This document shows, one piece after another, positions 17,035-47,450 of a stretch of 48,512 bases of DNA. Source of the DNA: a virus; the IMG/VR virus record IMGVR_UViG_3300030109_005160, positions 1 to 48,512 of that record; one strand, 5' to 3'. The notes beneath the pieces were generated by a model. That model did no database searches, was not told where the DNA came from, and was given only the letters and a program-made list of their open reading frames with translations. Position 1 is the first letter of the stretch, and each line of letters starts with the position of its first letter. The translations under genes were made by a program, and so were the position numbers.

Positions 17035-17230
17035 TGTTGGCAAAGATTATAAGAACGATGCTATGCACTACTCTGTAGGTCAAGAGGTTTATGGTGGGCA
17101 CACTATTTGTAATATCATAGATGGTAAAGACAAATATAGTGTGTTTATTAAAAAAAATGAAGACGTATTACCATGGAAAGACTTTAATAAAAACATGGCA
17201 ATATCAGTCGAGTATAACCTAGAGTATTGA
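17012..17230 (+). CDS. Conserved small hypothetical protein
   Basis: A 72-residue protein beginning MKLIRKISVGKDYKNDAMHYS. It has a beta-rich pattern with the phrase MHYSVGQEVYGGHTICNII, which I associate with short proteins encoded near terminase genes in marine phages. It starts inside the preceding gene and its TGA overlaps the following TTG start. It has one Cys and no catalytic signature. Function unknown. Confidence 0.6.
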   Translation: MKLIRKISVGKDYKNDAMHYSVGQEVYGGHTICNIIDGKDKYSVFIKKNEDVLPWKDFNKNMAISVEYNLEY

Positions 17231-17823
17231 GAGGTTTATTTGACTTTATCATAACACCAAAAGGTAAACGCTATAACAACACTAAGCAGGTTGGTGATAC
17301 AGAACTTATATTAAATGCTTCAATTGAAGATCATTTAATGATAAATAGAACTGGTATTGTAAAAGCGTTACCTAGCGTTGGTAAAACTAATATACAAATT
17401 GGTGATGAAGTAATTCTTCACCATAATGTATTTAGAAGATGGTATGACGCTCATGGTAATGAAAAAAATAGTAGAAGCTTTATAGATGAAAATACATACT
17501 GCGTATCTAGTGAACAGATATTTTTGTATAAACATAAAGATGAATGGCTAGCACCAGATGAATATTGTTTTGTTAAGCCAATAAAATCACGTGATGATTT
17601 TGATAATGATAAAGAACAGCAATTAGTAGGTGTTTTAAAATATTCAAATAACTCCTTAGAAGCGTTAGGATTAACAGAAAATACCTTAGTGGGTTTTAGT
17701 CCGTATAGCAAGTTTGAGTTTGTTATAGATCGCGAGAGGTTATATAGGGTATTAACTAATTCAATTACAATTAAATATGAATATCAAGGACAAGAAGAAG
17801 AATATAATCCAAGCTGGTTATAA
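17227..17823 (+). CDS. Conserved hypothetical protein, TTG start, possible GroES-like barrel
   Basis: A 198-residue beta-rich protein. The start is TTG, overlapping the preceding TGA. No ATG occurs before about residue 38, and the N-terminal residues RGLFDFIITPKGKRYNN look like real protein. NRTGIVKALPSV followed by IQIGDEVILHHNVFRRWYD resembles the central strands of a co-chaperonin-like beta barrel. YCFVKPI begins a second similar unit near residue 115. It might be a second GroES-type partner of the phage chaperonin or an unrelated barrel. It lies between small genes upstream of the terminase. Confidence 0.6.
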   Translation: MRGLFDFIITPKGKRYNNTKQVGDTELILNASIEDHLMINRTGIVKALPSVGKTNIQIGDEVILHHNVFRRWYDAHGNEKNSRSFIDENTYCVSSEQIFLYKHKDEWLAPDEYCFVKPIKSRDDFDNDKEQQLVGVLKYSNNSLEALGLTENTLVGFSPYSKFEFVIDRERLYRVLTNSITIKYEYQGQEEEYNPSWL

Positions 17824-28615: not shown

Positions 28616-31600
28616 ATGCCAGAGTTTAGACGAGAATTTTTAAAATCCAAGATGAATAAAGACTTGGATGAAAGACTAGTACCACCAGGCGAATATCGAG
28701 ACGCCTTGAATATTGAAGTTTCTACATCAGAAACTTCTGATGCTTTTGCTATAGAAGCATCAAATGGTAATTCTAAAATAACAGCATCAACAGTCTTTGA
28801 TGGCTACACTAACCCTAAATGTATTGGAGCAGCAAGAGATACAGAGAATAACAAAATATACTGGCTTGTTACGTCTGATAATAAAGATGCTATATTAGAA
28901 TACGACGCAGACTCAAGTGTGGTATCACCTGTTGCTGTTGCTGTTAAAGCAACTAGCGATGTTTTTAAGTTTAGTAAAGACTTTTTAGTAACAGGTATAA
29001 ACGTAATTGATGATTTATTATTTTTTACTGATGACAACTCTGAGCCAAAAAAATTAAATATAAATAGATTTAAAGCAGCTACCAACGGTGACTTTGATAC
29101 GCACACACAAATATACGGTGGTAATTTATTAGAAGAACATGTTACCACAATAAAGAAATATCCTAAATCTGCACCAAACTTATCTATTAAAAGAACATTA
29201 AGAGATGGTATAGTTGATTCAACTTTTATAGATACAAATGGAGATAAGTTTGTTGAGGCTGATGAGTCAACAACGCCAAAGGCTATAGGTAGTGAGATTG
29301 TTTTAGTTTTGTCAGGTCAACCAGATTATAAAGAAAATGATATATTAAAGATCACAACAACTGATAACTCAACTGTATATACAGCAAGAGTTAGTATTAA
29401 GTCTATAGACGACGTGAGTAGCACTAGTCAAACAATAACAGTTATATTGCTGTCAACAACAGACGAAATGTTAAGCTCTGATAAGCAAGTGTGGAACGTT
29501 GAGCTTGAAGAAGGTGATTCATTTTTTCAAGATAAGTTTCCTAGATTTGCATACAGATGGAAATACAACGATGGTGAGTATTCTGCATTTTCACCTTTTA
29601 CAGGTGTTGCGTTTATACCTGACGATGAAGACTTTATATATAACATGGAAGAAGGCCATAATGTTAATATGGTTAACAACGTTAGAAAAATTACTTTAAA
29701 TACTTTTGACACGTTACCAGCTGATGTAATAGAAGTTGACGTGTTATATAAAGAATCTAATGCCGCTAATATTTATTTAGTTTCTACATTAAAAAATAAA
29801 GAAAAGTCTATAACAATTACATCCGAACAAATAGAAAAAACTATTGAATCAAACCAATCGCTAAGACCTTATGATAACGTACCACGTAAAGCTAAAGCGC
29901 AAGAGATTACAGCCGGTAGATTAATGTATGGTAACTACCTTCAAAACAATACATTTAGAGATGCTGTTAAAATAAAATTAACAAACACACCCGCAGAAGT
30001 TGATAGAAACACACCTCAACCATCTGCTAAAAGTTTACGAACGTATCAAGTTGGTGTTGTTTATTTAGATGAGTTTGGTAGACAGTCACCTGTTTTTACT
30101 GGCACAGATAGTTCGTTAAAATTAGACGGAACATATGCTGATAAAAAGAATATATTAAAAGCAAAGATTAATTCTGACGCGCCATCTTGGGCAACGCATT
30201 ATAAGTATTATATAAAAGAAAATTCAAACGAGTATTATAATGTTATAATGGATAGATTCTATGAAGGAGAAGAAGATAACTTTTGGTTAAGTTTTCCATC
30301 ATCAGAAAGAAACAAGCTAACAGAAGATGATTACTTAATACTTAAAAAACAAAACGGTAAGAACGTTGCATTTGATCCAAATGAATATGGCTTTAAATCT
30401 AAGAAATATAAAATATTAGACATACAAAATAGTCCACCTGAATTTATAGCTAAGAAAAAAGAATTAATAGGTGAATTATCTGACACTAGTCAATTATTTC
30501 CAAACACACTAGTTGGTCATCCACGTGAAGGTTTTAGAACGTTTAGAATAGCTGGTGACAAAATAGGTGTTGATGCTAGTGAGTTAAGAGACATAGCAAA
30601 TAATGATAACTTTGTTAATCAAAATAAGTTTATACGTATTACAGATATAACAGACGTACGTGCTACTAATTATTATCAAATAGAAAAAGTATCAAAGGTC
30701 GATGCTAATGAGGATGGGGATTTTGTAGATGCTGGTGATTACTATGAGTTTACACTAGCAAAAAAGTTTGGCGCTGATGTTAACTGGGTAGGAACAAAAG
30801 ATAATAGAGTTGTTGATTTAAAGTTACAGTTGTTTTCTGAAGAAGTAATAATACAAAACGAAGAGTTTGCTGGTAGATTTTTTGTAAAGTTAAAACGTGA
30901 TGACATTATAGCAGAAAATATATTTGGTGGACCAGCTGACGAGTTTGATCAAGTTGCTGAAGCTAAATTTAAGTTAATTGATTTTAATGACACAGAGGCT
31001 GCTAGTAAAACACTAACATCAAAACAAGCTTCAACATCTGGAACAGTAACCACACCTTTTATAGATGATGCAAGAAGAAGTGACTTTGCTGGCGCTGGTT
31101 TTGTTATAGAACACGACTTAGATAAAAGCGGTAACAAGCCGACTGGTGATTTAGCAGCTGGCACAGCGGCATTTACAGTTAAAAAAGCAAATGGTAGTTT
31201 TGTACAAACAAATACAATTGTTGGTCCTAAAAAAGGTAATAATAGATTAATGTTACGTTATATAGATTATGGCGATGATAGAGCAGGTTCAGACACTACA
31301 GCACCAAAAGAAAGAGACTTTACAGCAAGAAATGATGAGAATAAAAGAATAACAGGTCAAACAGACTTTCAGTTTCACGAAATGTTAAGAGGTCAAAAGG
31401 GTTTATACTTATCTTTTGCTGGTGATCCTAATCAACACAGGATAAAAATTAGAAGTATAAAGTTAAGCTCTGTAAGAAACTTTAACTCTGTAAGAAGAAA
31501 TGCTAGTAGTGCAAATAGAGGTATAAGGTATGATATAGTTTTACAATCACCAATTGTATGGGGACCGTTAGCATCACAAACCGGTGGTACAGATGGTGGT

Positions 31601-34600
31601 AACTTACGTGTAGATGGCTTAGGCGCTGGTGGTCAAATATTTCCTATAAGAAAAAGATTAAACTATGCTACAATAAAATTATGGAGAAAAAGAACTAATC
31701 AAGTTCAAAAGAAAACCGGTAATCCCGCTGTATGGGAAACAGAACCAAAACCTTCTATAACTGATCTTGATTTATACTACGAGGCAAGTGATGCTTACGC
31801 AATAGCAGACCATGGTACCGAGCAAAATCTAGGTAACAATAGAAACGGTAGTAAGATATGGTATAACTGTTTTAGCTTTGGTAACGGTGTTGAGTCAGAT
31901 AGAGTTAGAGATGATTTTAATGGTATACGTATAGATAAAGGTGCTACAGCATCAGCAACACTTGATGAGCCTTTTGCAGAAGAAAGAAGAAAATCAAGCA
32001 TAATATACTCAGGCGTATTTAACTCTACAAGTGGTGTTAATAAACTAAATCAATTTATACAAGCAGAAAAAATAACAAAAGATTTAAATGACGCATACGG
32101 CTCTATACAGAAGCTGCATAGTAGAGATAATGACATTACTGTTTTGTGTGAGGATAAAGTATTAAAAGTACTAGCTAACAAAGATGCTGTATTTGAAGCA
32201 GACGGTGACTCTAGATTAGTGTCAACAAATAACGTTTTAGGTCAAGCAATACCTTACGCTGGTGACTTTGGTATAAGTAAAAATCCAGAATCATTTGCTG
32301 ACTTTAGCTTTAGAAGTTATTTCTCTGATAAAGATAGAGGTAAGGTGTTAAGATTATCAATTGATGGTTTAACTGATATATCTGGTAAAGGTATGGGTGA
32401 CTACTTTAGTGATAACTTATCGCTAGCTGATACTGTTATTGGTAATTACAACGAAGATAATAATAGCTATAACATAACATTAAATAATGACACTGTTAGT
32501 TTTAAAGAGGCTGTAGAGGGTTGGCCAAGTAGAAAATCATTTATACCAGAGTATGGTATATCACTTAACAATACTTATTACACATTTAATAATGGCGATC
32601 TTTATGAACATACTAATGACGTTAATAAGAATACATTTTATGGGGCTGCACAAGCAGACTCAACCATAGACGTTTTATTTAATGAAAATAGAAACGCTAT
32701 AAAGAAATTTAAAACGCTAAATTATGAGGGTGATAGTGGCTGGGTAGCAGATGAAATAACAACAGATCAAGAGACTGGTGCTGATGTTAGTTTTAAAGCA
32801 AAGGAAAACAAGTACTTTGCACATATGAAACATGTTAAGAAACATAAGGTTACAATCAACATAGGTAACAGTGATGGTGGTAATATAATAATACCCGATG
32901 GTCAAAACATTAATATACTACCTGGTGCAACAGCTTCAAACTCATTTACGTTTATCGTGAAACCAAAATCAGGTTATAAGTTTGATTCAGCGTTTACATT
33001 TGGAAGTTTCAACACAAACTATTTAACAACCACTGCTTCAGGAAATACATCTGCAACAATAAATTCAGATGGTAATATGGTTGTTGCTACACAATTAAAT
33101 AGCTTTAAAATGGTACCTGAAAATATTGAATTAGATTTACCACTTGTAACGTCAGGTAAAATATCTACTAACGCGTTTACCTTAGCTGGCACGTTTAATA
33201 AGACAATACAAAATTCTTCTGTAAATGACATTAATGGTGGTGGTACTATATCAGCAGGTGCAGCAGATGGTTCGTCATGGACTACTTCTGGTACTAGTAA
33301 TACAAGTACAACTTTAATGAATATATTAGTTACGCCTCACTCTAATCACGAGTTTACAGATGATAATCTACCACAATTAATTGTGACTGGTGAAATCAAT
33401 GATAACTATGAAATAACTGGACCTACAGCTCAAGGCACAGGTTATACATTTAAAGTTGTCGGGTCAAGGGTTAATAAAAATCTTACAGCAGAAAATATTA
33501 AATTAATATCTAAACCAAATAAAGCTGTTAGTCTTGAGACTAATGCTATATGGGGCGCGGATATATCGCAAGAAGATTTTGCTAAGGATGAAGAAGAAAG
33601 AGAGATAATAGTTAGAGGATCTGTTGGTGCGCAAGTGTTATTAGGTGCAAGTGTTGTATCTTCAACAGGCACTGATCTTGCTATTAATATATTAGATGGT
33701 AATGGCTTTGCAACAGGTCAAAAGACATTAACAATAGGTGATAACGGTCAAGCAAAAGCAATAATAAAGGTAACAGCTAACGGTACAAGTGGAAGAAGAA
33801 ACGTGTTTATATTACTTAGCGAAACTACAGGTTATGTTATAACAGATGAGTTTGATAACTCTGATGGTGCGGATGATTCTAAAGTATTATACACTATACC
33901 ACAGACATTATTGGTACATATTAGTGGTTTTCTTTTAGTAGCAGCGTCTACGACGCCACACAGTTCTTTTGGTTCACTACCAGCTGGACCAGCAGAGACC
34001 ACACAGTTTAGTTTGACTTTAACAAACAATTCAGTGTTAGGTACAAATCCAGGCTCAGGCGTACAAATGAACGCTGCAGCTGCTTCTACTAGTCCAATGC
34101 GACAACCTGCTAATACAGAGTTTCCTACAGAAAACAATATATTTTCACAGCAGTTTTCTCTTGCAAGAAACAACTCCGGCGACAGTGATAGTAGGGTTGT
34201 TAAGGTAGATGATCTTGATGTACAAAATGACTTCTTAAAAACTGATGGCACAAACGCTTATGATTCTAGCACTGGTAATCTTGTGTTAGCTAACGGTAGT
34301 ATATTAAAAGTTATTGATCATAGATATGGCGTTATTGGCTCGTCTGGTAGAGGTAACATCACTATACAGTTTGAAATACTTAAATATGGTACAGCTGATG
34401 ACTACGTTGTTTTAAAAACACAGAACGTACTTAATTTATCTCAAAATGTTGGTGGTTCAGGTTCTACAGTGTCAACAGTAACTTTAACTGGAAATCCAAC
34501 TACTTACATAGCTGCTGATATAGATGAAAGAGCTGGTAATGTATTTGCTACAAAAGCAAATAACGACCCGATAACGTTTCAGTATATTGTTACGTTTACA

Positions 34601-34837
34601 GCTGCAGCAGCAGGTAGGTTTGTTGATGAGTTTCAGGTAACATACAGCTCGCTAAGTTCAAACATAGATACTAATACATCAGACGCATATCTTTTGTTAG
34701 AAAGTGGATCAGGTGATAAGTTTGGTAGAATAAGAGAGGGTGATACAGCAATAGCTAACTTTAAAGTATTAGCTGATGGAAGTATATCAGGTGGCACAGC
34801 AGCAAGTGCAACGGTAGCAGTAAGTTTATTAAATTAA
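28616..34837 (+). CDS. Giant tail tubular protein B-like nozzle protein (2073 aa)
   Basis: The N-terminus has MNKDLDERLVPPGEYRDALN (residues 13-32), the hallmark of large tail-tube nozzle proteins of this phage type. It is followed by propeller-like repeats (IGAARDTENNKIYWLVTSDN, VIDDLLFFTDDNSEPKKLNI). The middle, about 400-1300, continues beta-rich. The region from about 1400 to 2073 contains several Ig-like beta-sandwich stretches (GASVVSSTGTDLAINILDG, TTQFSLTLTNNSVLG, ADGSISGGTAASATVAVSLLN). T7 gp12 is under 800 residues, so this is nearly three times as long. It probably forms the tail tube plus extra decorating domains on the outside of the tail. Confidence 0.72.
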   Translation: MPEFRREFLKSKMNKDLDERLVPPGEYRDALNIEVSTSETSDAFAIEASNGNSKITASTVFDGYTNPKCIGAARDTENNKIYWLVTSDNKDAILEYDADSSVVSPVAVAVKATSDVFKFSKDFLVTGINVIDDLLFFTDDNSEPKKLNINRFKAATNGDFDTHTQIYGGNLLEEHVTTIKKYPKSAPNLSIKRTLRDGIVDSTFIDTNGDKFVEADESTTPKAIGSEIVLVLSGQPDYKENDILKITTTDNSTVYTARVSIKSIDDVSSTSQTITVILLSTTDEMLSSDKQVWNVELEEGDSFFQDKFPRFAYRWKYNDGEYSAFSPFTGVAFIPDDEDFIYNMEEGHNVNMVNNVRKITLNTFDTLPADVIEVDVLYKESNAANIYLVSTLKNKEKSITITSEQIEKTIESNQSLRPYDNVPRKAKAQEITAGRLMYGNYLQNNTFRDAVKIKLTNTPAEVDRNTPQPSAKSLRTYQVGVVYLDEFGRQSPVFTGTDSSLKLDGTYADKKNILKAKINSDAPSWATHYKYYIKENSNEYYNVIMDRFYEGEEDNFWLSFPSSERNKLTEDDYLILKKQNGKNVAFDPNEYGFKSKKYKILDIQNSPPEFIAKKKELIGELSDTSQLFPNTLVGHPREGFRTFRIAGDKIGVDASELRDIANNDNFVNQNKFIRITDITDVRATNYYQIEKVSKVDANEDGDFVDAGDYYEFTLAKKFGADVNWVGTKDNRVVDLKLQLFSEEVIIQNEEFAGRFFVKLKRDDIIAENIFGGPADEFDQVAEAKFKLIDFNDTEAASKTLTSKQASTSGTVTTPFIDDARRSDFAGAGFVIEHDLDKSGNKPTGDLAAGTAAFTVKKANGSFVQTNTIVGPKKGNNRLMLRYIDYGDDRAGSDTTAPKERDFTARNDENKRITGQTDFQFHEMLRGQKGLYLSFAGDPNQHRIKIRSIKLSSVRNFNSVRRNASSANRGIRYDIVLQSPIVWGPLASQTGGTDGGNLRVDGLGAGGQIFPIRKRLNYATIKLWRKRTNQVQKKTGNPAVWETEPKPSITDLDLYYEASDAYAIADHGTEQNLGNNRNGSKIWYNCFSFGNGVESDRVRDDFNGIRIDKGATASATLDEPFAEERRKSSIIYSGVFNSTSGVNKLNQFIQAEKITKDLNDAYGSIQKLHSRDNDITVLCEDKVLKVLANKDAVFEADGDSRLVSTNNVLGQAIPYAGDFGISKNPESFADFSFRSYFSDKDRGKVLRLSIDGLTDISGKGMGDYFSDNLSLADTVIGNYNEDNNSYNITLNNDTVSFKEAVEGWPSRKSFIPEYGISLNNTYYTFNNGDLYEHTNDVNKNTFYGAAQADSTIDVLFNENRNAIKKFKTLNYEGDSGWVADEITTDQETGADVSFKAKENKYFAHMKHVKKHKVTINIGNSDGGNIIIPDGQNINILPGATASNSFTFIVKPKSGYKFDSAFTFGSFNTNYLTTTASGNTSATINSDGNMVVATQLNSFKMVPENIELDLPLVTSGKISTNAFTLAGTFNKTIQNSSVNDINGGGTISAGAADGSSWTTSGTSNTSTTLMNILVTPHSNHEFTDDNLPQLIVTGEINDNYEITGPTAQGTGYTFKVVGSRVNKNLTAENIKLISKPNKAVSLETNAIWGADISQEDFAKDEEEREIIVRGSVGAQVLLGASVVSSTGTDLAINILDGNGFATGQKTLTIGDNGQAKAIIKVTANGTSGRRNVFILLSETTGYVITDEFDNSDGADDSKVLYTIPQTLLVHISGFLLVAASTTPHSSFGSLPAGPAETTQFSLTLTNNSVLGTNPGSGVQMNAAAASTSPMRQPANTEFPTENNIFSQQFSLARNNSGDSDSRVVKVDDLDVQNDFLKTDGTNAYDSSTGNLVLANGSILKVIDHRYGVIGSSGRGNITIQFEILKYGTADDYVVLKTQNVLNLSQNVGGSGSTVSTVTLTGNPTTYIAADIDERAGNVFATKANNDPITFQYIVTFTAAAAGRFVDEFQVTYSSLSSNIDTNTSDAYLLLESGSGDKFGRIREGDTAIANFKVLADGSISGGTAASATVAVSLLN

Positions 34838-34843
34838 AAAATT

Positions 34844-35347
34844 ATGAGTGCAACAATATCATTTAGTGAAATACCAGCAGACGTAGAAGCAAAAAGTGCA
34901 GCTGGTTATAACGGTTTTGACGTAGACGATAGAGCGTACGATCTATTGTATGTTTCAGATATATCATCTGGTAGCATGGCTACACCTCATTTATGCGGTG
35001 CTATTATAGCAAAAAGTACTACTGTATTAACTATAGACACAAGTGTGTACAGTACAGCAACGTACAACGCCACGTTAAATGAACACGCAATAGATTTAAA
35101 AGACGTGGTTAATATTGGCTTAGGTATATCAACAGCTAGCAGTAGTGAGTGGACTAGCGGGTCTTGGCCCTTTGCAGATGACACTGTTAGAGGCAACTTT
35201 TACTTCTTTGTTGTCAAAGATAAAGTAGCACAAAGCAATGGCTTACTAGGTTATTACATGCAAGTTAAGATGAGACTAACACCTGGTAGCAGTAAAAAGA
35301 CTGAATTATTCGCTGTAGGTAGCGAGATATTTGAAAGTAGTAAATAA
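34844..35347 (+). CDS. Small structural protein of the tail region
   Basis: A 167-residue acidic, beta-rich protein (MSATISFSEIPADVEAKSAAGYNGFDVDDRAYDLLYV). It ends in MQVKMRLTPGSSKKTELFAVGSEIFESSK. No signal peptide or membrane segment. It lies 6 bases after the nozzle gene and before the internal virion genes. It may be a tail or tube accessory protein. Not recognised as a named family. Confidence 0.55.
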   Translation: MSATISFSEIPADVEAKSAAGYNGFDVDDRAYDLLYVSDISSGSMATPHLCGAIIAKSTTVLTIDTSVYSTATYNATLNEHAIDLKDVVNIGLGISTASSSEWTSGSWPFADDTVRGNFYFFVVKDKVAQSNGLLGYYMQVKMRLTPGSSKKTELFAVGSEIFESSK

Positions 35348-35373: not shown

Positions 35374-36132
35374 ATGGGTGAATACGCAATAAAATTAGAT
35401 CGATCAGCTATTAGCTCCGCAAGTGAACTACGTGGCGCAGCGGCTAACATTGCAGATTTAAATCAGCAAGTAGCTGATAGGGGTGGTGTTGATGAAATAT
35501 ATAGTACAAACAGTAATAATAAAAAGAATATGTTAGGAGATTTATCAAGTGGACAGGTAGGAGCAATAGGCCAAGGCATTGGAGGTCTAAGCAGCATAGT
35601 ATCTAGTATAGTAGGTGGGAGAGCTAGAAGGCAAGAACAAGCAGATGCTAGAAACGCGTATAGAGATAGGATGTCGTCGTTTGAACAAATGGATTATTAT
35701 GGTAGTCAACCAATAAATCCGTTTGCAAACCTTACCGTTAACCAATTACAAGCTCAATTTCAAGCAAGACAACAACAACAAATGGCAGCCGACACAATGG
35801 CGCAACTTAGAGGTGCAGCGGGTGGATCAGGTATAGCCGGTTTAGCTCAAGCGTTATCACAGCAGCAACAAGGCAACCTAGCACAAATAGCCGGTGGTAT
35901 AGGTCAGCAAGAAGCTGCAAACCAAATAAATATAGCTCAGGGTGAAAACATTAGATTTCAAGCACAACAAGCAGCTGAACAAAGAGTAAGAGATAAAAAC
36001 GAAACCTTATTAGCGTTAGCAACACAGAGAAAAGCAATAGCTGATCAAGCAAGAAAAGACGCTACAGAAGCATTAGTCGGTGGCATAGGTAATGTAGCGG
36101 GTGCAGCGGTAAGTTTTATAGGCGCAGGTTAA
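35374..36132 (+). CDS. Internal virion protein, Gln/Ala-rich
   Basis: A 252-residue protein with a Gly-rich, membrane-active segment (GQVGAIGQGIGGLSSIVSSIVGGRARRQ), a long Gln/Ala coiled-coil region (QLQAQFQARQQQQMAADTMAQL, GSGIAGLAQALSQQQQGN) and a hydrophobic Gly/Ala C-terminus (VGGIGNVAGAAVSFIGAG). This layout matches small ejection proteins analogous to T7 gp14, which enter the host envelope during DNA delivery. It is first in a run of three internal virion genes. A tape-measure-like role is less likely given the size. Confidence 0.68.
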   Translation: MGEYAIKLDRSAISSASELRGAAANIADLNQQVADRGGVDEIYSTNSNNKKNMLGDLSSGQVGAIGQGIGGLSSIVSSIVGGRARRQEQADARNAYRDRMSSFEQMDYYGSQPINPFANLTVNQLQAQFQARQQQQMAADTMAQLRGAAGGSGIAGLAQALSQQQQGNLAQIAGGIGQQEAANQINIAQGENIRFQAQQAAEQRVRDKNETLLALATQRKAIADQARKDATEALVGGIGNVAGAAVSFIGAG

Positions 36133-37711: not shown

Positions 37712-40700
37712 ATGAAAGAAACTATATTTGAATTTTACCGTCAGTATGCACCAGACGTTAAGCTTACTGATGATAAAATTGCACAACTAGAACAGCATTA
37801 CCAAGGCGATACAAATAAGTTTATAAATGATTTTAAACAAAAATTTTTTGACCCTAAAGGTATAGAATTTGACAGAGTGTCTGCAGCTGGCCAAGCAGCT
37901 AAAATATATAGAGCATTTGATGAGGCTGATGTTGAGGCTGTTTATGAACAAGAACAAAAAGACAAACAATTACTAGCAGAGCAAGAAGTTGAAATCAGTG
38001 ACAACTTTGATCCTATGGTTATGCTAGGAGATATCTATAATGGCAACACTACGTTGCAACAGGATTACGTAAAAATCAATCAATTATTTTCCCCATACGG
38101 TTTTAAAGTTAAAAGAGACACTCAGGCAGAGGTAAACTCAGAGTCTGGAACTTATAGCAGAAGAGATAAGCTTGTAGTTACAGCACCTAATGGAAACACA
38201 CAAGAAATATTTCTTAATACAAAAGATGAAAAAGCTAATAGAGAAGTTCTTGCAAAGTTTTTTACTGATAATGCGGATAAAAACTCTGATGAATACAAAG
38301 CTGGTCAAGATAAATTTAAAAGAGAATTTAGTCCTTATGGTAGAGCTTACTATGATGCTGTTAGCCTATCTGACCAGGAAAAAGAAACTATAAAACAACA
38401 AGTAGAGAATACAGACTTTAGTGAACAACAGATTGTTGACGGTGCTAGAACAATGACAGGTGCCGTTGCGGGTGTTTTATATAAAACTGGCGAGCTACCA
38501 AAAAGCAAAGAAGATCTTGTTGAGCTTAAACATGAGCAAACTTTAGAAAAAGCAAGACAAATATTAATAGATCAAAGATCAAAAGATTTAGGTGGTTATA
38601 GTGATGCTGGCGAACTATACGAACCATCGCAACAAGAGATAGAAAATTTAGCAAGAAACCTACTACATAGAGAATTGTTATTTGAAAAAAGACAACAAAA
38701 AGGTAATGATTACATTGACGGTTTAGATGACGATTATTTTTCTGATGAGAAAGCAAACCGCGATAGAGCAAAGACTTTTTTAGCTGGAACGTTAATAGAA
38801 TCTGAAGCTGGTAAAGATCTTGATCAACGTATAGATCGTTTAACTATGTTAAGTGATAACTTTGATTTAGATCCAGACGTTCAAAAGCTAAATGTTATCA
38901 TGGATAAGTACGAAGAGTATGATAACACAGAGCAGGTTATGTTTAACATGTCTGATAAAGATAGAGAAGAGCTAAACGAATTACAAAAAAGAGTTTCAGG
39001 TAAAATACATGATATAGACACGGCGAGAAACGACATAATAGGGCGAGCAGATTTTTTAGAAGAAGTACCTGAACAGCTTGAACTAGCTAGAAAATCATAT
39101 GCTCAAGCATCTAGGTTTGCTGATAAATTATTTAATGTTGGCTTACCACAAACGCTTTACGGTATTGGTGGTGCTCTTGGTAGAATAACATCAGATATAG
39201 ACATGCTTATATACGCACAAAACACAGGGCGTGAAGATAATTCTAAGTGGTTTAAAGAAACTTTTCCGGCATTAACATCAGAAGAGTTTTCAAAAGCTAG
39301 TGTAGAAAGGCAAAAAAAGTTTGAAAAGATAAGAGGTAAATATTCTAAAGGTGCAGATATAGGTCAAGTTGGTGAAGCTTTTGCGGCAGGTGATGGTGTT
39401 GTAGATAGCCTTGCTAAGGCTGGTTCAAAATTTTTTAGTGCTGGCATGTGGACCAACACGCTTGACATAACAGCAGACTTTTTACCTATAGTTGGTACAA
39501 TAGCAGCAACTGGTATATTAGGCGGTGGAGCTTTAACGGGAGGTGCTAGAGCTTATTCAATGGTTGGTCTAGGTTATAGTGCTAGAAGAGGTCAATATGA
39601 CTTTGATGAGTACACAAACCCTATGGCTAAAAAAACTAGCATAGGACAAAAAATGTTTGTATCAGCTGGTCACGGTATAGCAGAATACGCGGGTGAAAGC
39701 TTAACAACATTTAAATTAGTTGATAATATGATATCACCTAGAGGTTTACCACTTTTAGGTGGTAAAGAGGTTGCGAAAAGATTAGCACCTGAAACAGGCA
39801 AATATATACAAAAAAACTTTTTAACATCTGTTCCAGCAGCTTTTGCAGCAGAAGGTTTAGGTGAAGGTGCCACTCAAATGATGCAAAATATTTTTGACAG
39901 AAGACCTGTAATGGAAGATGTTGGTCACGCTGTATACGCTGGTATGCTGATGGGTGGTGGCATGGGAGTATTTAGTACAATGCATGGCGCAGCTTTAACA
40001 AGATCTGTTGATGGTAAAACAAGAAAAGCATTAGATCTTGACTACCAAAACTTTCAAACAGAACTTGGAAGATTAGAAAAACTAAAAGCTAGAGTTAAAA
40101 AAAGAGGTGGTTTTAATTTAGAAGCTACAAACGAAGCAATAGCAAAGCAACAAAAAAAGGTCGAAGAGGCTAGTGATAGACTACAGGAAAAATACACTAA
40201 CATTGTTAAGTATTCACCACTATATAACAAAGCTGTGTTTGATCAAGTTATTAAATCAGAAGCGTATGTTAATGAGTTGAGAAGAGAATATGAGCAACTA
40301 GATAAAGAGTATAGAAAAGGCCAGATAGATTTAGAGACTCGTGATAAAAGAAAACGACAAATAGAAATGGAGGTGCAGGGTCAGGTTGATCTTCAGGATA
40401 AAATCAAATCAAACAAATTAAATTTGTTTCAAGCTTTAAAAGATTCTAGCGATAAAAAAGACAAGCAGAAATATGATGATTATATTGAAAAAGCAGAGGC
40501 AGAAGGCGTTGAAAACGTTACAGCAAGAGCAGAAGAAATATATTATGAAGATGTTTACGATCAAAATATAAAAAAATATAAAGAAGTTGCTAAAAAACAT
40601 AACGCTAAAAAAGATAAACCATATAAGTTAGAAGTAAAAAGCTTAACAAAAGCTGAAGCGATAGAGTATTATAAAAATTCTGACTTTGCAAAGGGTAAAT

Positions 40701-43700
40701 CAGAGGCAGAAATTAACAAAACACTAGATGATATAAGGCAAGGTAGACAAAATGGTTTTCAGTTAGACAGCGCTGATGGTCAAACCAGAACAGCTGTTGC
40801 TATTAAAGATAATGCACTTAACAATAGAAGAGTATTTACAATGCCTCACGAGGTAATACATACCGTTGTTGAAGAGGCTTTTGGTGGTGATGTAGCTAGA
40901 GAAGCAGAACTTGCAGATGCTATAAGAGAATATACTAAGAATGCTCTTCCAGAAATATATAAATTATTAGAAAATGAAACTGACATTGAGGTTCCGTCTG
41001 TCTTTTTTGAATATTTTGCAGAGCAAGGACACAAAGTAAAAGATCATGCACCATTTTTTAATGGTATGAAAAATGTTACAATGCCAGACGTTGACTTTAT
41101 GAACGCTGGTGAAATGGTAAGGTACTTTGATTCTTTTATAAAGTATAGTCAAAAAAGAACAGCATTAGAAAAAGCAAAAGCACAAAGAGCAAAGAAAAGT
41201 ATTGAAGAAGATCCTAAAGGTTACGCGATAAGAAGAACTAAACTAAACAGAAAAGTATTAGCATTGATGAGAGACGAAGATCCTGATGCTGATTTTGTTT
41301 GGAACGAGGATATAGCATCTGAAGCTTTAGCTTTTGTTATTGAAAATAAAATACTTAACACGTACATATTAGGTAAAAGACCTATAGGTATATCACCTAC
41401 AGAGTGGATAAATGATGTGTATACAGAGTTTATAAGTGTTTCTAATAACTACGACGGTAGAATAAAAGATGCTGATGGTAACGCTGATTATTTTGGTTGG
41501 CTCATGGGTAACTTAGGCTACCAAACACTTGATGTTACTAAGTCTGTAATTAAAGAACAACAGGAAAGAGCAAAGACAGTTGACATAGATGAAGCAAGGG
41601 GTATAGCAGAACAAACAGGAGATACAGTTGAAGACTTTGGTTTTACTGAGGTTGCTGAAAAGTTAGGTGTACCGGTAGAAACAATTAAAGAATTAACTAA
41701 GTTAGTACAGGGTGAGTTAGGTAGGTTTACAAAAGATATTACAGAGGGTATTACACTCAATAGAAGTATATCACCTTTGTTTCAAACATTGAATGCTAGG
41801 TTTGCTCAAGCTACAGCTAAAAACCCAGGTGGTGGTAACTGGAGAGTAATAGCACCTTTATTAAAAGATTTAAAATCTTTCATAGAAAATAATACAGCTA
41901 CAATGCTAAATGAAGTTAGTACTGAATATGCTGCTAAGAACATACCACAGATAGTACAAAAATCTGTTAATGGTGAGTTTATATCGGACTGGAAAGGTAA
42001 AAAAATAGACAGACAAAGTAAAGCTGACACGGGTAAAACATCTGGTCCACAGATAATGAGAAAAGATAAGCAAGGTATAAGAAATCTTATAAGAAACCCA
42101 CAGGCTTTGTTAGATATATTCTTACCTAATAACAAACCAAGTCAAGCTAAAAAAGAAGGTTTAGCTATTAATCTATCACAAAGACTAGCAAGAGAGATAT
42201 TACAAAATGATTTACTTAACTATATAAAAACAGGTAGCTTTAAAAACTCACCTATAACAGAAAGACTAGCAAAAACACAAAGCTTATTTGATAGGGTTAT
42301 AAGCGAAGCTAAAGCAGCTGAAATAGTAAGGCAGAGTGATAGAATAAAAAATAGTGTTGAAACATTAGCTCCGCCTGATAGAATAAAAGTATTTGAAGTT
42401 AACGATCAAATTATTGAACTTATAAGAAAAGGCGTTGATGTTGAGGCTGCTGTAAGGCAACTATTGAGGTTTGGTGATAAAAAAATGTTGCAAGTAGCAA
42501 AAGCATATAGTAGTGTTATTGCTAAGTATGGTGACTTTACAAAGCTAGCAAAAGCAGAAAGATCTAAAATAAAACCAAGCGTTGTTACATTAGAAGATTT
42601 TATACAGCAAGAGTTTGCTGACATAGTAAGTGATGATCTAATGTTTAGTAAGTTTGTGGATAAAATAGCTAACTTAGAAAAAGACTTAAATGCTTATCAT
42701 CTTGAAGATGGTAGAGTAGAAACAGCAAGAAAAACAGACAAGAAGTTTATAAAGAGCTTAATGAAAGAATTTAACAACGATCCAAAAGAAGTTGCTAGGT
42801 TTGTTTTAAAGTTTATGAAGGGCCACACAGCTTCAGCAAGTCAAATATCAAACAAAGCTCTTGGTATTATTGATGGTATACTTAGTATAATTGATAAAGA
42901 TAGAGTTAGCGCAAGGTCAAGATTTCAAAACTACCAGAATGTAGACGAGATGCTAAACACGTTATTACGTGATAACCTTGGCATGCAAATTACTAAAGTA
43001 AATAAGTTAGGCAAACGAGAAGGTGGTTATGAAATAACATACGAAGGTCAAGATGTATTCTTAGGTAATTCTGAAATAAAATTAAACCCAATAGAGTCAA
43101 AAGCTGTAATAAAAAATAACATAACTTACGATCAAAGCAAAGCTGAAGCCGACGAGCAAACAGCTGCTATGTTTAAATATCTAGACTTCTTAAACAAACA
43201 AAGGGGTAATAACTACGATGATATAGATTTTATATTAGCGCTACAGTCTTTAAATAGCAACATGCAAACCATGTTACGTAGATCCGCGCCATACACATAT
43301 AAGTTTGTAGGTGATTATACAGGTGCGTTACGATATGAACATATCATACCAGCTGGTTATATATTAACAAACATAGCTGATCATTACTTAAACAAAGGAA
43401 AGACAAAAGCAGATCTTAAAAAGTTAATGTCTAAATATGAGGTTGCTATTATACCACAAACTATGGACAAGCAGATACCTATGGGATCGTTAATGGCTAG
43501 AGGTTATCAAGCTGGTGACAATGCTTTGGCTAATAGATATTATACTATAGCAAATTTTGGCAAAGACAATTTTTATCCTGTAAAAAATATAAATAACGGT
43601 GATGTGTTTGGTGACGTGTTTAGTAAAAAGTCATTACAAAGACTAAACATAAGAGCAAAAAATAGCGTTGAAAAACGATCAGATTCTAAAGCAGCACAAC

Positions 43701-46363
43701 ACTTTGTTGTTGCTATGAAAAAATCAATTGATCCTAATGCAAAACAAAAAGGTGCTAGCGTTATAGACTTTGATGACACGTTAGCTAAAACTACTTCTAA
43801 GGTGCTTTACACGCTTCCTAACGGAACTAAGGGTAAAATAGATGCCACAGAGTTTGCGACACGTTCTGAGGCCTTAGAAGCTGAAGGAGCAGATTTTGAT
43901 TTTAGTGAATTTACTAAGGTAAAAGCTGGTAAACGTGGACCTTTCTTTGGCAAAGCGCAAGCATTAAAAGATAAGTTTGGTAACACAGATATATTTGTGT
44001 TAACAGCAAGGCCACAAGACGCTGCACCAGCTATACAAAAGTTTTTAAGTGGTATAGGTTTAGATTTAAAAATAGAAAATATAATTGGACTAGAAAATGG
44101 TACGCCACAAGCTAAGGCAGACTGGATAACTAGCAAGGTAGCAGAAGGTTATAATGATATACTATTTGCTGATGATGCTATTAAAAACGTTAAAGCGGTA
44201 GCTGATGTACTAGACATGTTTAATATTGGCGGTAAGATATATCAAGCAAGACAAAAGTTTAGTAAAGAAGGATCAACAGAAAGAACACTAGATAAAATAT
44301 TAGACGAAAATAATCCTGATAGTGACGTTGCGGGTAGAGCTGTAGATAAAACAGAAGCAAAAGAAAAGGGTAGACCTGGTTTTTGGTTAAAAGAACTATT
44401 TAACTTTAGATCAAAAATTAATCAAATATTTATTCCACCATCTGCTGAAGATTTAAAAGGGTTATGGGACAATCACATAGCTGGTAAAGGTAGAAAAGGT
44501 GAGTCTGACAAAGTATGGTTTGAAGAAACTATACTAAGACCTTACGCTAGAGCGGAACGTGCACTTGATAGAATTAAGTTAGCTATTAGAGATGGTATGG
44601 TTAACTTAAAAAAAATGTATGGTAAAGACTTTATACAAGGTTTATATAAAGATGCTATGCCAGAATTTACACGTATGGATGCTGCTAGAATATATTTATG
44701 GTGGAAAGCAGGGCATGATATACCTGGTGTAACAACAGAGCAGTTTGATAAGCTATTAGATTACGTAATGAAAGATCAGCAGTTAAAGAACTATGCTGAC
44801 AATGTTTTTGAATTATTAAATGATAATATAAAACCTGCGTTAGTACCTTTATTTGAATTATATCCACCACCAACACAATACTGGAAACAACAAGATATAA
44901 ACTCTGATGTAGAATTTGTTTTTAAATTTATACGACCAAGTATTCATCAAGAATTTATTGACAATAGATACAGCGTGTTTACACCTGAGATGATGAATAA
45001 GATTGAAGCTATATATGGTACTCAGTTTAGAGAGGCATTAGAAGATATATTCTTTAGGATGGAAGAAGGCGTTAACAGAAACGCTAGTCAAATAAATAAC
45101 CCTTGGATTAAGTGGTTAAACTTTGCTACAGGTAATATAATGTTTGTGAATATAAGATCAGCGTTATTACAGTCTATATCAGCAACAAACTTTATAGAGG
45201 TTACTGGACCTAATAACTTATTTAATACATTAGCTAGGGTTATGGATAGAAAACAATGGGTTGCAGATTTCACAGCACTATGGAACTCAGAGTTTTTAAG
45301 AAACAGAAGAGGCAGAGGTAAAATAGATATTGTGCAAGAAGAGATACAACGTACTGTGGCGTCTGAAAAAGATCCATTCTTACGTTTAGCTAGCTTATTA
45401 CAAAACAAAGGTTATGCACCTACTAGGTTTATGGATAGTTTAGCTATAGCATTTGGTGGTGCGGCTTATTATAGAAACCTTATTAATGATTATGTTAGTA
45501 AGGGTATGGATCAGGTACAAGCAGAGAGAACAGCTATGAGAGACTTTAGAGAAAAAGCTGAAGCCTCACAGCAGTCTGCAAGAGCTGATTTAATATCTAT
45601 GCAACAAGCTAGTGTTATGGGTAGAATATTCTTAACGTTTCAAAACGTTACAATGCAGTACACAAGGTTAGGTAAGAAAGCGCTTAATGACTTTAAAAAT
45701 GGTAGAAGAGTTAAAAACGCAGATGGTACATTTAAATCTTTACGTGATAGTAGGTTAGAACAAGCTTGGCAAATGTTTCAGTTTATGGCTTATCAAAACC
45801 TATTGTTTGCCGGTTTACAAAAAGCTATAATACTTATGTTTGCTTTAGGTGAAGGTGAAGAGGTTGAAGAAAAACAAAAAATAGATTACTTAAACGCAGC
45901 GCTAGATTCTATATTAAGAGGTAGCGGTATAGTTGGTGGCATACTATCAGTGGTTAAAAATATAGGTATTGAATTAGCAAGGGGCAACAGAAGAGACTTA
46001 GATGTTAAGGTGTTAGAAATATCACCTACAATATCTACTAAATTTAGAAAGGCAGCGAAGATAATCAACGCTGTAGGTAAAGGTAACTACAAAGATTTAT
46101 TAATTGAAACACCTTCGTTTGTTTATGGTCTACCAACTGATAGAATAGAAAGATTAATAAGACAAATAGAAGCAGGTGTTGATTTACACGATCAAGGATA
46201 TAAGTCATACGAAAGAATACTAATGAGCTTAGGTTGGTCAACATATGACTTTGGTTTAGACAAACCACCTACAGTACTTGACATACTTGACATGAGTGAA
46301 ACACAAAAGAAAACAAGAAAAAGATCACGTAGAACACGAAGTAAACGAGGTAAAAGAAGGTAA
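37712..46363 (+). CDS. Giant internal virion / polyvalent protein with zincin and HAD domains (2883 aa)
   Basis: One uninterrupted frame. Residues 1-560 are charged helices. About 589-620 is hydrophobic and Gly/Ala-rich (FLPIVGTIAATGILGGGALTG), possibly membrane-inserting. HEVIH at 1046-1050 with a downstream FFEYFAE is a zinc-peptidase motif. About 1232-1330 (DVYTEFISVSNNYDG, GWLMGNLGYQTLDV, VAEKLGVPVETIKEL) has a faint sigma-factor-like look. RYEHIIPAGYIL lies near 1873. A HAD phosphatase has DFDDT (2019-2023), LTARP (T2098) and FADDA (D2154, D2155). About 2463-2497 (NPWIKWLNFATGNIMFVNIRSALLQ) resembles a large-polyvalent-protein-associated domain. The last 20 residues are almost all Arg, Lys, Thr and Ser. 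Such proteins are thought to enter the host with the genome and act at once. Confidence 0.78.
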   Translation: MKETIFEFYRQYAPDVKLTDDKIAQLEQHYQGDTNKFINDFKQKFFDPKGIEFDRVSAAGQAAKIYRAFDEADVEAVYEQEQKDKQLLAEQEVEISDNFDPMVMLGDIYNGNTTLQQDYVKINQLFSPYGFKVKRDTQAEVNSESGTYSRRDKLVVTAPNGNTQEIFLNTKDEKANREVLAKFFTDNADKNSDEYKAGQDKFKREFSPYGRAYYDAVSLSDQEKETIKQQVENTDFSEQQIVDGARTMTGAVAGVLYKTGELPKSKEDLVELKHEQTLEKARQILIDQRSKDLGGYSDAGELYEPSQQEIENLARNLLHRELLFEKRQQKGNDYIDGLDDDYFSDEKANRDRAKTFLAGTLIESEAGKDLDQRIDRLTMLSDNFDLDPDVQKLNVIMDKYEEYDNTEQVMFNMSDKDREELNELQKRVSGKIHDIDTARNDIIGRADFLEEVPEQLELARKSYAQASRFADKLFNVGLPQTLYGIGGALGRITSDIDMLIYAQNTGREDNSKWFKETFPALTSEEFSKASVERQKKFEKIRGKYSKGADIGQVGEAFAAGDGVVDSLAKAGSKFFSAGMWTNTLDITADFLPIVGTIAATGILGGGALTGGARAYSMVGLGYSARRGQYDFDEYTNPMAKKTSIGQKMFVSAGHGIAEYAGESLTTFKLVDNMISPRGLPLLGGKEVAKRLAPETGKYIQKNFLTSVPAAFAAEGLGEGATQMMQNIFDRRPVMEDVGHAVYAGMLMGGGMGVFSTMHGAALTRSVDGKTRKALDLDYQNFQTELGRLEKLKARVKKRGGFNLEATNEAIAKQQKKVEEASDRLQEKYTNIVKYSPLYNKAVFDQVIKSEAYVNELRREYEQLDKEYRKGQIDLETRDKRKRQIEMEVQGQVDLQDKIKSNKLNLFQALKDSSDKKDKQKYDDYIEKAEAEGVENVTARAEEIYYEDVYDQNIKKYKEVAKKHNAKKDKPYKLEVKSLTKAEAIEYYKNSDFAKGKSEAEINKTLDDIRQGRQNGFQLDSADGQTRTAVAIKDNALNNRRVFTMPHEVIHTVVEEAFGGDVAREAELADAIREYTKNALPEIYKLLENETDIEVPSVFFEYFAEQGHKVKDHAPFFNGMKNVTMPDVDFMNAGEMVRYFDSFIKYSQKRTALEKAKAQRAKKSIEEDPKGYAIRRTKLNRKVLALMRDEDPDADFVWNEDIASEALAFVIENKILNTYILGKRPIGISPTEWINDVYTEFISVSNNYDGRIKDADGNADYFGWLMGNLGYQTLDVTKSVIKEQQERAKTVDIDEARGIAEQTGDTVEDFGFTEVAEKLGVPVETIKELTKLVQGELGRFTKDITEGITLNRSISPLFQTLNARFAQATAKNPGGGNWRVIAPLLKDLKSFIENNTATMLNEVSTEYAAKNIPQIVQKSVNGEFISDWKGKKIDRQSKADTGKTSGPQIMRKDKQGIRNLIRNPQALLDIFLPNNKPSQAKKEGLAINLSQRLAREILQNDLLNYIKTGSFKNSPITERLAKTQSLFDRVISEAKAAEIVRQSDRIKNSVETLAPPDRIKVFEVNDQIIELIRKGVDVEAAVRQLLRFGDKKMLQVAKAYSSVIAKYGDFTKLAKAERSKIKPSVVTLEDFIQQEFADIVSDDLMFSKFVDKIANLEKDLNAYHLEDGRVETARKTDKKFIKSLMKEFNNDPKEVARFVLKFMKGHTASASQISNKALGIIDGILSIIDKDRVSARSRFQNYQNVDEMLNTLLRDNLGMQITKVNKLGKREGGYEITYEGQDVFLGNSEIKLNPIESKAVIKNNITYDQSKAEADEQTAAMFKYLDFLNKQRGNNYDDIDFILALQSLNSNMQTMLRRSAPYTYKFVGDYTGALRYEHIIPAGYILTNIADHYLNKGKTKADLKKLMSKYEVAIIPQTMDKQIPMGSLMARGYQAGDNALANRYYTIANFGKDNFYPVKNINNGDVFGDVFSKKSLQRLNIRAKNSVEKRSDSKAAQHFVVAMKKSIDPNAKQKGASVIDFDDTLAKTTSKVLYTLPNGTKGKIDATEFATRSEALEAEGADFDFSEFTKVKAGKRGPFFGKAQALKDKFGNTDIFVLTARPQDAAPAIQKFLSGIGLDLKIENIIGLENGTPQAKADWITSKVAEGYNDILFADDAIKNVKAVADVLDMFNIGGKIYQARQKFSKEGSTERTLDKILDENNPDSDVAGRAVDKTEAKEKGRPGFWLKELFNFRSKINQIFIPPSAEDLKGLWDNHIAGKGRKGESDKVWFEETILRPYARAERALDRIKLAIRDGMVNLKKMYGKDFIQGLYKDAMPEFTRMDAARIYLWWKAGHDIPGVTTEQFDKLLDYVMKDQQLKNYADNVFELLNDNIKPALVPLFELYPPPTQYWKQQDINSDVEFVFKFIRPSIHQEFIDNRYSVFTPEMMNKIEAIYGTQFREALEDIFFRMEEGVNRNASQINNPWIKWLNFATGNIMFVNIRSALLQSISATNFIEVTGPNNLFNTLARVMDRKQWVADFTALWNSEFLRNRRGRGKIDIVQEEIQRTVASEKDPFLRLASLLQNKGYAPTRFMDSLAIAFGGAAYYRNLINDYVSKGMDQVQAERTAMRDFREKAEASQQSARADLISMQQASVMGRIFLTFQNVTMQYTRLGKKALNDFKNGRRVKNADGTFKSLRDSRLEQAWQMFQFMAYQNLLFAGLQKAIILMFALGEGEEVEEKQKIDYLNAALDSILRGSGIVGGILSVVKNIGIELARGNRRDLDVKVLEISPTISTKFRKAAKIINAVGKGNYKDLLIETPSFVYGLPTDRIERLIRQIEAGVDLHDQGYKSYERILMSLGWSTYDFGLDKPPTVLDILDMSETQKKTRKRSRRTRSKRGKRR

Positions 46364-46382: not shown

Positions 46383-46682
46383 ATGGCAGCACAAAATCCA
46401 ACAACGAAGGAAACGTTAAAAATAATAGAATATCAGATAGAACAGATATTTAAAGAAGTCGAAAAGCTTAATGAAGATAATTTAAAAGCACACACTGACG
46501 TTAAAAATGATCTACGTTTTATAAAGAATAATTTATTTGATCCTAATGAAGGCATTTGGGCTGAAGTAAAACGTAATACAAATTTTAGAAATGACACTGT
46601 TAAATGGAGAAGCGCCTTAGGATTAGGTGTTTTTAGTTTAATAGGAAAACACATATATGACTTTTTTAAATCACTCTCATAA
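46383..46682 (+). CDS. Small coiled-coil protein with C-terminal membrane anchor
   Basis: A 99-residue protein. Residues 8-60 form a coiled coil (LKIIEYQIEQIFKEVEKLNEDN). Residues about 75-96 (WRSALGLGVFSLIGKHIYDFF) form a likely single membrane segment near the C-terminus. The layout resembles XhlA-type or accessory lysis proteins. It leads the lysis cassette and is joined to the next gene by TAATG. It may regulate holin or spanin action at the inner membrane. Confidence 0.6.
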   Translation: MAAQNPTTKETLKIIEYQIEQIFKEVEKLNEDNLKAHTDVKNDLRFIKNNLFDPNEGIWAEVKRNTNFRNDTVKWRSALGLGVFSLIGKHIYDFFKSLS

Positions 46683-46984
46683 TGAAACAAATAGAAGAAT
46701 TAGGCGATAAAACAATTGGTATAGATATAGATGGCGATAAAAAGCCAGACTTTAAAGTCGACGTAAAAAGTATTGCGATCGTCATAGGGTTCATTATATC
46801 TGGTACTATGGGTTATAATAATCTTAAGCAAGAGATAGAATTAGCTAAAGAACTACCGGCTTATGAAGTAAAGGAAACATCTGATGGTTTACTACTAAAA
46901 CAAAAAGTAGATTATTTAGAAAAAGAAATAGAAAAATTAGAGAACAAGGTAGATAATTTAGAAAACAAAGTATATAAAAGATAA
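46682..46984 (+). CDS. Membrane-anchored coiled-coil protein, possible i-spanin, copy 1
   Basis: A 100-residue protein. After a short acidic N-terminus (IGIDIDGDKKPDFKVDVK) a membrane segment lies at about 29-45 (SIAIVIGFIISGTMGY). A coiled coil (LEKEIEKLENKVDNLENKVYKR) ends the protein. The N-in, single-membrane, periplasmic coiled-coil plan fits an inner-membrane spanin subunit. The gene at 48068 encodes a similar protein with the same C-terminal DKVYKR/NKVYKR. It precedes the M15 endolysin by 4 bases. Confidence 0.55.
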   Translation: MKQIEELGDKTIGIDIDGDKKPDFKVDVKSIAIVIGFIISGTMGYNNLKQEIELAKELPAYEVKETSDGLLLKQKVDYLEKEIEKLENKVDNLENKVYKR

Positions 46985-46988
46985 TTAA

Positions 46989-47450
46989 ATGATTAGTAAA
47001 CACGTTAGTATGCGCGAGGGTAGGTATAGCATAACAGCAAAACGCCTTGGCTTAGAAAATAATCCAACTGAAGAACATCTTAACAATATGAAAATGTTAG
47101 CTGTAAAAGTGTTTGAACCGCTTAGAGAGTGGGTTGGTGGTCCTATCAGGATAAATTCATTTTATCGTGGACCAGAGTTAAACAAAGCTATCGGCGGTAG
47201 CAGTAAGTCACAACATTGTAACGGTCAAGCTGTGGACATTGATGATGTGTATGGACACAAAACAAACGCTGAAATGTTTAACTTTATAAAAGATAATTTA
47301 CAATTTGATCAGATGATATGGGAATTTGGTGATCACAAAAATCCTGACTGGGTGCATGTAAGCTATGTAAATCCAGGTGAAAATAGAAACAGATGCTTGG
47401 TAGCATTTAGAAAAGACGGTAAAACTCAATACGCAAATTACGCAGCTTGA
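46989..47450 (+). CDS. Endolysin, M15 peptidase (D,D- or L,D-type)
   Basis: A 153-residue single-domain peptidase. SFYRGPELNKAIGGSSKSQHCNGQAVDID contains zinc ligands H76 and D83, and WVHVSY gives H123, the HxxxxxxD...H pattern of family M15. It cleaves peptide cross-links or stem peptides of peptidoglycan. No signal peptide is present, so it depends on a holin to reach the wall. The candidate is the holin at 7116, far away in the same window. It is surrounded by small membrane genes that complete lysis. Confidence 0.88.
   Translation: MISKHVSMREGRYSITAKRLGLENNPTEEHLNNMKMLAVKVFEPLREWVGGPIRINSFYRGPELNKAIGGSSKSQHCNGQAVDIDDVYGHKTNAEMFNFIKDNLQFDQMIWEFGDHKNPDWVHVSYVNPGENRNRCLVAFRKDGKTQYANYAA

Follow-up and report, generated by a model that had tools for sequence, protein, structure and literature searches.

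A putative large polyvalent ejection protein with zincin-like, HAD phosphatase and sigma-70-like parts in an uncultured marine phage

A giant reading frame at the end of the virion operon

The window analyzed here is the whole 48,512-base stretch of a virus record, within which 37712-46363 (+) forms one uninterrupted ORF of 2883 aa (Table 1). The earlier note had described a single frame combining zincin and HAD motifs with a hydrophobic segment and a basic tail, and we located every one of these elements: HEVIH at residues 1046-1050, DFDDT at 2019-2023, LTARP at 2097-2101, FADDA at 2152-2156, the strongest hydrophobic stretch at 590-608 within the glycine-rich region 575-770, and KKTRKRSRR at 2866-2874 in the basic C-terminus. 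By themselves the zincin and HAD motifs are weak evidence, given that HExxH is present in 1.2% of composition-preserving shuffles and a loose HAD motif string in 2.7% of such shuffles. The decisive observation is that the catalytic residues are conserved across relatives, and the domains are therefore real, beyond chance. Searches of Pfam, PHROGs and PDB sequences with the whole protein returned nothing usable, and Foldseek on its multi-domain models gave noise alone.

Table 1. Features of the giant ORF and of neighboring genes in the window
Feature	Position in window	Strand	Evidence or remark
Giant ORF of 2883 aa, putative polyvalent ejection protein	37712..46363	+	full-length relatives in IMG/VR
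Variable N-terminal part (aa 1-574), without known domain	37712..39433	+	in most stretches, close relatives are 16-58% identical; dN/dS 0.39
Glycine-rich hydrophobic domain (aa 575-770)	39434..40021	+	common to giant virion proteins of flavobacterial phages (profile matches)
Zincin-like metallopeptidase domain (aa 1006-1150)	40727..41161	+	H, E, H, E invariant in 44 sequences
HEVIH of zincin; putative third ligand E1093	40847-40861; 40988-40990	+	
Sigma-70-like segment (aa 1195-1340), with region 2-like helices ahead of a region 4-like part	41294..41731	+	profile and fold matches
Region 4-like helix-turn-helix of sigma-like segment	41627-41689	+	
'EH' domain (aa 1804-1988), invariant Glu-His 1876-1877	43121..43675	+	no consistent Pfam match
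HAD phosphatase domain (aa 2010-2186): DFDDT, LTARP, K2135, FADD	43739..44269	+	invariant motifs, fold
Helical C-terminal module (aa 2215-2851), conserved; core common to the family	44354..46264	+	
Basic tail (aa 2862-2883)	46295..46360	+	52% K/R in last 25 residues
2073-aa virion structural protein, upstream, same operon	28616..34837	+	phrog_14478, 1.5e-146
252-aa structural-operon gene, upstream of giant ORF	35374..36132	+	homologues upstream in family loci
Holin-like gene and endolysin, just downstream of giant ORF	46682..47450	+	

The terminase and portal of the window match those of flavobacterial phages, namely the Flavobacterium elemo phages, Cellulophaga phi38:1 and phi18:3, and Tenacibaculum Gundel_1, and the environmental record MW202828 also matches this terminase and portal, at 62%. 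The host of this uncultured marine phage probably belongs to the Flavobacteria. The phage of MW202828, which has the closest terminase, encodes a giant protein of 3859 aa (L013:741-12320, minus strand) in which HExxH occurs twice and neither the hydrophobic domain nor a HAD or sigma segment was detected. Elsewhere in the window, 3310-4893 encodes GroEL (Cpn60, 1.9e-55) and 17227-17823 a GroES-like co-chaperonin; GroEL/GroES-like genes are also carried by several flavobacterial phages.

The virion operon ends with the giant ORF, and the gene order agrees with that of flavobacterial phages: the same operon end holds a 3694-aa 'structural protein' in the elemo phages, a 1691-aa protein in phi38:1 and a 1935-aa protein in phi18:3, the last of which (gp123) owes its annotation to MS/MS on virions. 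A profile of the hydrophobic domain matched elemo gp18 (9e-23), phi38:1 gp101 (2.6e-20), phi18:3 gp123 (1.4e-14) and Gundel_1 gp074 (3e-14), with E-values computed on small sets, and across all ORFs of those isolate records it gave just two further matches up to E 0.1, both weak (E 0.01-0.05). Across the family loci described below, homologues of the 2073-aa protein lie upstream of the giant ORF in 60 of 123 and homologues of the 252-aa gene in 54 of 123, while downstream we found the holin homologue in 41 and the endolysin homologue in 33 of the same 123. The homology of one domain to giant flavobacterial-phage proteins, taken with this synteny, suggests by analogy that the protein is present in virions. 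Upstream of the giant ORF, a 167-aa ORF (34844-35347) has matches to the phage families phrog_18548 and phrog_38031, as does the neighboring 2073-aa protein, each to a different part of them, a pattern that suggests gene fission or a moved domain.

Conserved domains of the giant protein family

The HAD segment as a query alone found at least 257 places in IMG/VR, and a second query found 53 places, additional or overlapping. In the loci that were kept, the HAD lies nearly always inside a giant ORF; those that are full length mostly measure 2000-4700 aa. The family set comprises 124 non-redundant giant ORFs with HAD from uncultured marine phage contigs. Almost all of these contain the C-terminal module, 75 have a detectable zincin and 34 a detectable sigma-like segment. 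The conserved unit of the family is the HAD followed by about 650 residues of C-terminal module, with the zincin upstream of the HAD in most members and the hydrophobic domain and sigma-like segment there in part of them; the basic tail averages 33% K/R over 89 full-length members. Domain order is mostly the same throughout the 124. In two members (L055 and L057) the HAD lies before an HExxH motif, and in a third (L093) about 850 residues separate it from the C-terminal module; the domains have therefore been shuffled within the family. At a threshold of E 1e-5, neither the HAD nor the C-terminal module found a match among 50,697 phage records, isolates included. The idea that the giant proteins of flavobacterial isolates carry the HAD or the sigma-like segment was rejected, as profile searches at the sensitivity used found neither in them. 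Gundel_1 gp074 and a contig from human faeces contain weak relatives of the C-terminal module, and the HAD was found as an ORF of its own in two places, a 462-kb phage and a contig of a Flavobacteriaceae MAG.

Residues H1046, E1047, H1050 and E1093 are the sole invariant positions in 44 zincin segments whose identity falls to 13-14%, and the zincin profile matches elemo gp18 at 3.5e-9, an E-value again computed on a small set. This pattern of conservation strongly suggests a zincin-like (gluzincin-like) metallopeptidase domain. The region is modeled with well-predicted strands and helices (pLDDT about 80-90). When the domains were taken individually through profile searches and structure prediction, the HAD proposed in the earlier note was recovered by both sequence and fold, whereas the zincin was upheld by its invariant residues: the list from the fold search with its model contained no zincin, which is an absence only, and a PDB search with the alignment profile gave no relevant match.

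The HAD segments are invariant at D2019, D2021, T2023, T2098, R2100, K2135, D2154 and D2155 across 121-124 sequences. The closest fold to the HAD model is the 3'-phosphatase of T4 polynucleotide kinase (5uj0, Z 12.0, rmsd 2.6, 127 of 142 residues aligned), followed by 1ltq (Z 11.2) and 2ia5 (Z 10.9), so that the top three matches are all T4 Pnkp; the further matches listed are nearly all HAD-fold proteins, among them many small-molecule phosphatases. For each of the six segments tested, the best phage family was phrog_415, 'polynucleotide kinase', with E-values of 6.5e-8 in the relative L055 and 0.008 for the window, and direct sequence comparison of the HAD profile with T4 Pnkp stayed at noise or shuffle level. 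Together, sequence and predicted fold establish this region as a HAD-superfamily phosphatase domain. Five members (L096, L112, L150, L152 and L154) have roughly 130-200 residues inserted between HAD motif I and the rest of the domain, the position where HAD caps usually sit.

In the conserved domain ahead of the HAD, a Glu-His pair is invariant, represented in the window by RYEHIIPA at 43331-43354; in Pfam at most two members matched any one family, and no known family was recognized. The C-terminal module, about 650 residues long, is modeled as helical with a pLDDT of 75.8. Compared with BFVD, it matches proteins of uncultured marine viruses over nearly its full length and, with E-values between 1e-7 and 1e-5, proteins whose annotations read large polyvalent, ART-PolyVal and MuF-containing, a predicted fold resemblance that would place the giant protein in the polyvalent class. 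The earlier reading of the ORF as a large polyvalent protein is favored by its architecture, by the fold of this module and by its operon position, and it finds no counterpart in Pfam, where no LPD or polyvalent domain matched the giant protein or the family members searched.

Against two relatives, L011 and L001 (76-83% overall identity), dN/dS was 0.05 for the C-terminal module, 0.06 for the EH domain, about 0.08 for the HAD, 0.08-0.10 for the sigma-like segment and 0.12-0.20 for the zincin, indicating that purifying selection acts on the enzyme domains; the higher value for the N-terminal part comes from a single comparison. After residue about 1200, close relatives are 85-100% identical in most stretches, as against 18-88% before it. 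This jump in identity, from about 30-70% to 85-100% at about position 41310 of the window, suggests recombination.

The sigma-70-like segment

The faint sigma-factor-like look that the earlier note had remarked on at residues 1232-1330 turned out to be a real signal in Pfam, NCBIfam and the predicted fold, good in strength though not conclusive. Among 29 sigma-like segments searched against Pfam, Sigma70_r2 was the commonest match (7 members, best 2.2e-4), and the window's own segment matched Sigma70_r4 at 0.021, whereas the control segment A4, from the EH domain, gave scattered matches with no family in more than two members. The NCBIfam models sigma70-ECF and FliA_WhiG match the segment of L063 at 8e-4 and 1e-3, and in PDB profile searches sigma factors ranked first with marginal E-values (0.08 and 0.16). 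Over 50 whole records at E<=1, Sigma70_r2 matched just ORFs of about 250-270 aa and the giant ORF; its giant-ORF matches, in 8 of the 50 records, all fall inside the predicted segment (5e-6 to 1.5e-3), and TIGR02937 gave the same pattern (5e-7 to 4e-5 in the giant ORF), both models scoring under their curated cut-offs in these giant ORFs of relatives. In the DNA search, the window's giant protein drew no Sigma70_r2 match with an E-value up to 10, and Sigma70_r4_2 has a single match in the window, at aa 1306-1326 of the giant protein, with an E of 0.008 that is under the cut-off. In the window and in two close relatives, a region 4-like helix-turn-helix stands behind region 2, as the order in sigma factors would have it, and the region 2-like part is the better recognized of the two. 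In hhalign comparisons with four E. coli sigma factors the segment reached P 0.004 in the region 2 register, versus 0.32 and 0.44 for two control segments, and a profile of the segment could not tell E. coli sigma factors and shuffles apart. The fold search returned bacterial sigma factors in all of its top 8 places, with Z from 6.9 to 4.6 against 4.4 for the next, unrelated protein, Z-scores of 5-7 being modest for a helical bundle. Taken together, these matches make it probable that the segment is homologous to sigma region 2.

Besides the giant ORF, most near-complete contigs of this group have a stand-alone gene of the sigma-70 family, with a product of about 250-265 aa and E-values down to 4e-19 (for example G030:C1:62994-63626 and G053:C1:24334-24957, with about 25 other records, and L168-L170). 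G053 and G059, which have this gene, are close relatives of the window; in the window itself, whose record may be incomplete, no separate sigma gene was found. A second sigma beside such a gene is not obviously needed, which counts against the function proposed below. We consider it unlikely that the segment works as a promoter-reading sigma factor.

The segment could be an unrelated linker domain that has converged on a small helical bundle, a reading favored by a fold Z below 7, by the failure of E. coli sigma factors to rise above shuffles and by the lack of a Sigma70_r2 match in the window's giant protein taken alone. This explanation appears doubtful: in whole records, the Pfam and the NCBIfam models each single out this place independently, the hhalign P value in the region 2 register stands apart from those of the controls, and control segment A4 drew no recurrent Pfam family. 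Alternatively, the segment might be a decoy that binds the host's RNA polymerase at its clamp to silence host transcription, and that reads no promoters. The better recognition of the region 2-like part is in keeping with this role, as is the full separate sigma gene of relatives, which could read promoters; the region 4-like helix-turn-helix behind region 2 in the window and two close relatives speaks against it, and we regard a decoy as possible while thinking it rather less probable than not.

Proposed function and comparison with known systems

On balance, we moderately favor the view that this uncultured marine phage encodes in its giant ORF a large polyvalent ejection protein, putatively multi-enzyme, with a zincin, a sigma-like part and a HAD. 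In this proposal, the protein would be packaged with the DNA and ejected into the host, with the hydrophobic domain aiding passage across the envelope. The zincin could then cut the chain, itself and/or host proteins, releasing parts, and self-processing is the most likely of these. For polyvalent proteins, both self-processing and a jump-start of transcription have been proposed (PMC5512222). The sigma-like part may bind host core RNA polymerase and either start phage early transcription or take polymerase away from host sigma factors, and the HAD may strip 3'-phosphates from DNA or RNA ends left by host nucleases during entry. A further version of this scheme has the phages of the group carrying a sigma factor inside the virion: the sigma-like part would enter the cell along with the DNA, be released by the built-in zincin and direct host polymerase to the first phage promoters before the separate sigma takes over. 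This version is speculative, and we think it unlikely.

The protein resembles large polyvalent proteins, whose commonest domain is the zincin (Iyer et al. 2017, PMC5512222), in joining several enzyme or binding domains, a zincin among them, in one 2883-aa chain. In those proteins the zincin is a common hub and delivery with DNA is found in known cases, and the C-terminal module of the window protein resembles annotated members by fold; the window protein differs in matching no Pfam LPD domain and in the addition of a HAD and a sigma-like segment. The N4 virion RNA polymerase type of polyvalent protein is likewise giant, includes a zincin and is proposed to jump-start transcription (PMC5512222). 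No polymerase domain was recognized in the present family, with no Pfam polymerase match in 17 members (structure models of the giant cover parts after aa 990), and an N4-like polymerase identity found no support. With elemo gp18, phi38:1 gp101, phi18:3 gp123 and Gundel_1 gp074 the protein has the hydrophobic domain in common, and with elemo gp18 the zincin as well, the elemo, phi38:1 and phi18:3 genes lying at the same operon end; the HAD and sigma-like segment set it apart from all of these giants. The HAD has its nearest fold in the 3'-phosphatase of T4 polynucleotide kinase/phosphatase (PseT), with which it shares motifs of the DxD, S/T-x-R and DD type, but unlike PseT the giant protein has no recognized kinase domain, and the direct profile comparison is not significant. 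The sigma-like segment is akin to the sigma-70 family (FliA/WhiG, ECF) in its region 2-like and partly region 4-like parts and its predicted region 2 fold, and unlike those factors it sits inside a giant virion-operon protein and scores below curated cut-offs.

Two further alternatives concern the protein as a whole and the substrate of its phosphatase. The giant could belong inside the virion or in the tail channel, with its zincin, HAD and sigma-like folds there for the mechanics of assembly and ejection, through proteolytic maturation or as scaffold, and with no enzyme acting in the host. Its ORF adjoins virion genes in the operon, the homologous isolate giants are annotated as structural only, and phi38:1 gp101 and phi18:3 gp123 keep the hydrophobic domain without HExxH or HAD motifs. 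However, the catalytic residues of the HAD and zincin are all invariant over very divergent sequences, which mechanics alone would not need, and we judge a purely mechanical role improbable. For the HAD within a polyvalent ejection protein, the fold points to nucleic-acid 3'-phosphates, and not signals or free nucleotides, as the substrate, a reasoned guess based on the model. Activity on small molecules such as nucleotides, alarmones or cyclic signals is a reasonable, if less favored, possibility: small-molecule phosphatases are numerous among the fold neighbors after T4 Pnkp, and the HAD of the Flavobacteriaceae MAG, 35% identical, is a separate small ORF. The first three places in the fold search and the recurrence of the polynucleotide kinase family phrog_415 as best match in six of six segments weigh in the other direction.

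The giant protein represents a family of virion-operon proteins that is widespread in marine metagenomes and apparently has no isolate with the full set of domains. Two of its parts, the Pnkp-like phosphatase and the sigma-like segment, go beyond the polyvalent-protein survey, from the text of which the words sigma, phosphatase and haloacid are absent (PMC5512222); the available excerpt of a jumbo-phage survey names Pnkp-type HADs in RNA repair and does not place them in polyvalent proteins. If ejected with the phage DNA, the protein may be a ready-made takeover kit. Its interest lies mainly in the sigma-like segment, for if that part works, it would provide a protein-delivered start of transcription without a virion polymerase.
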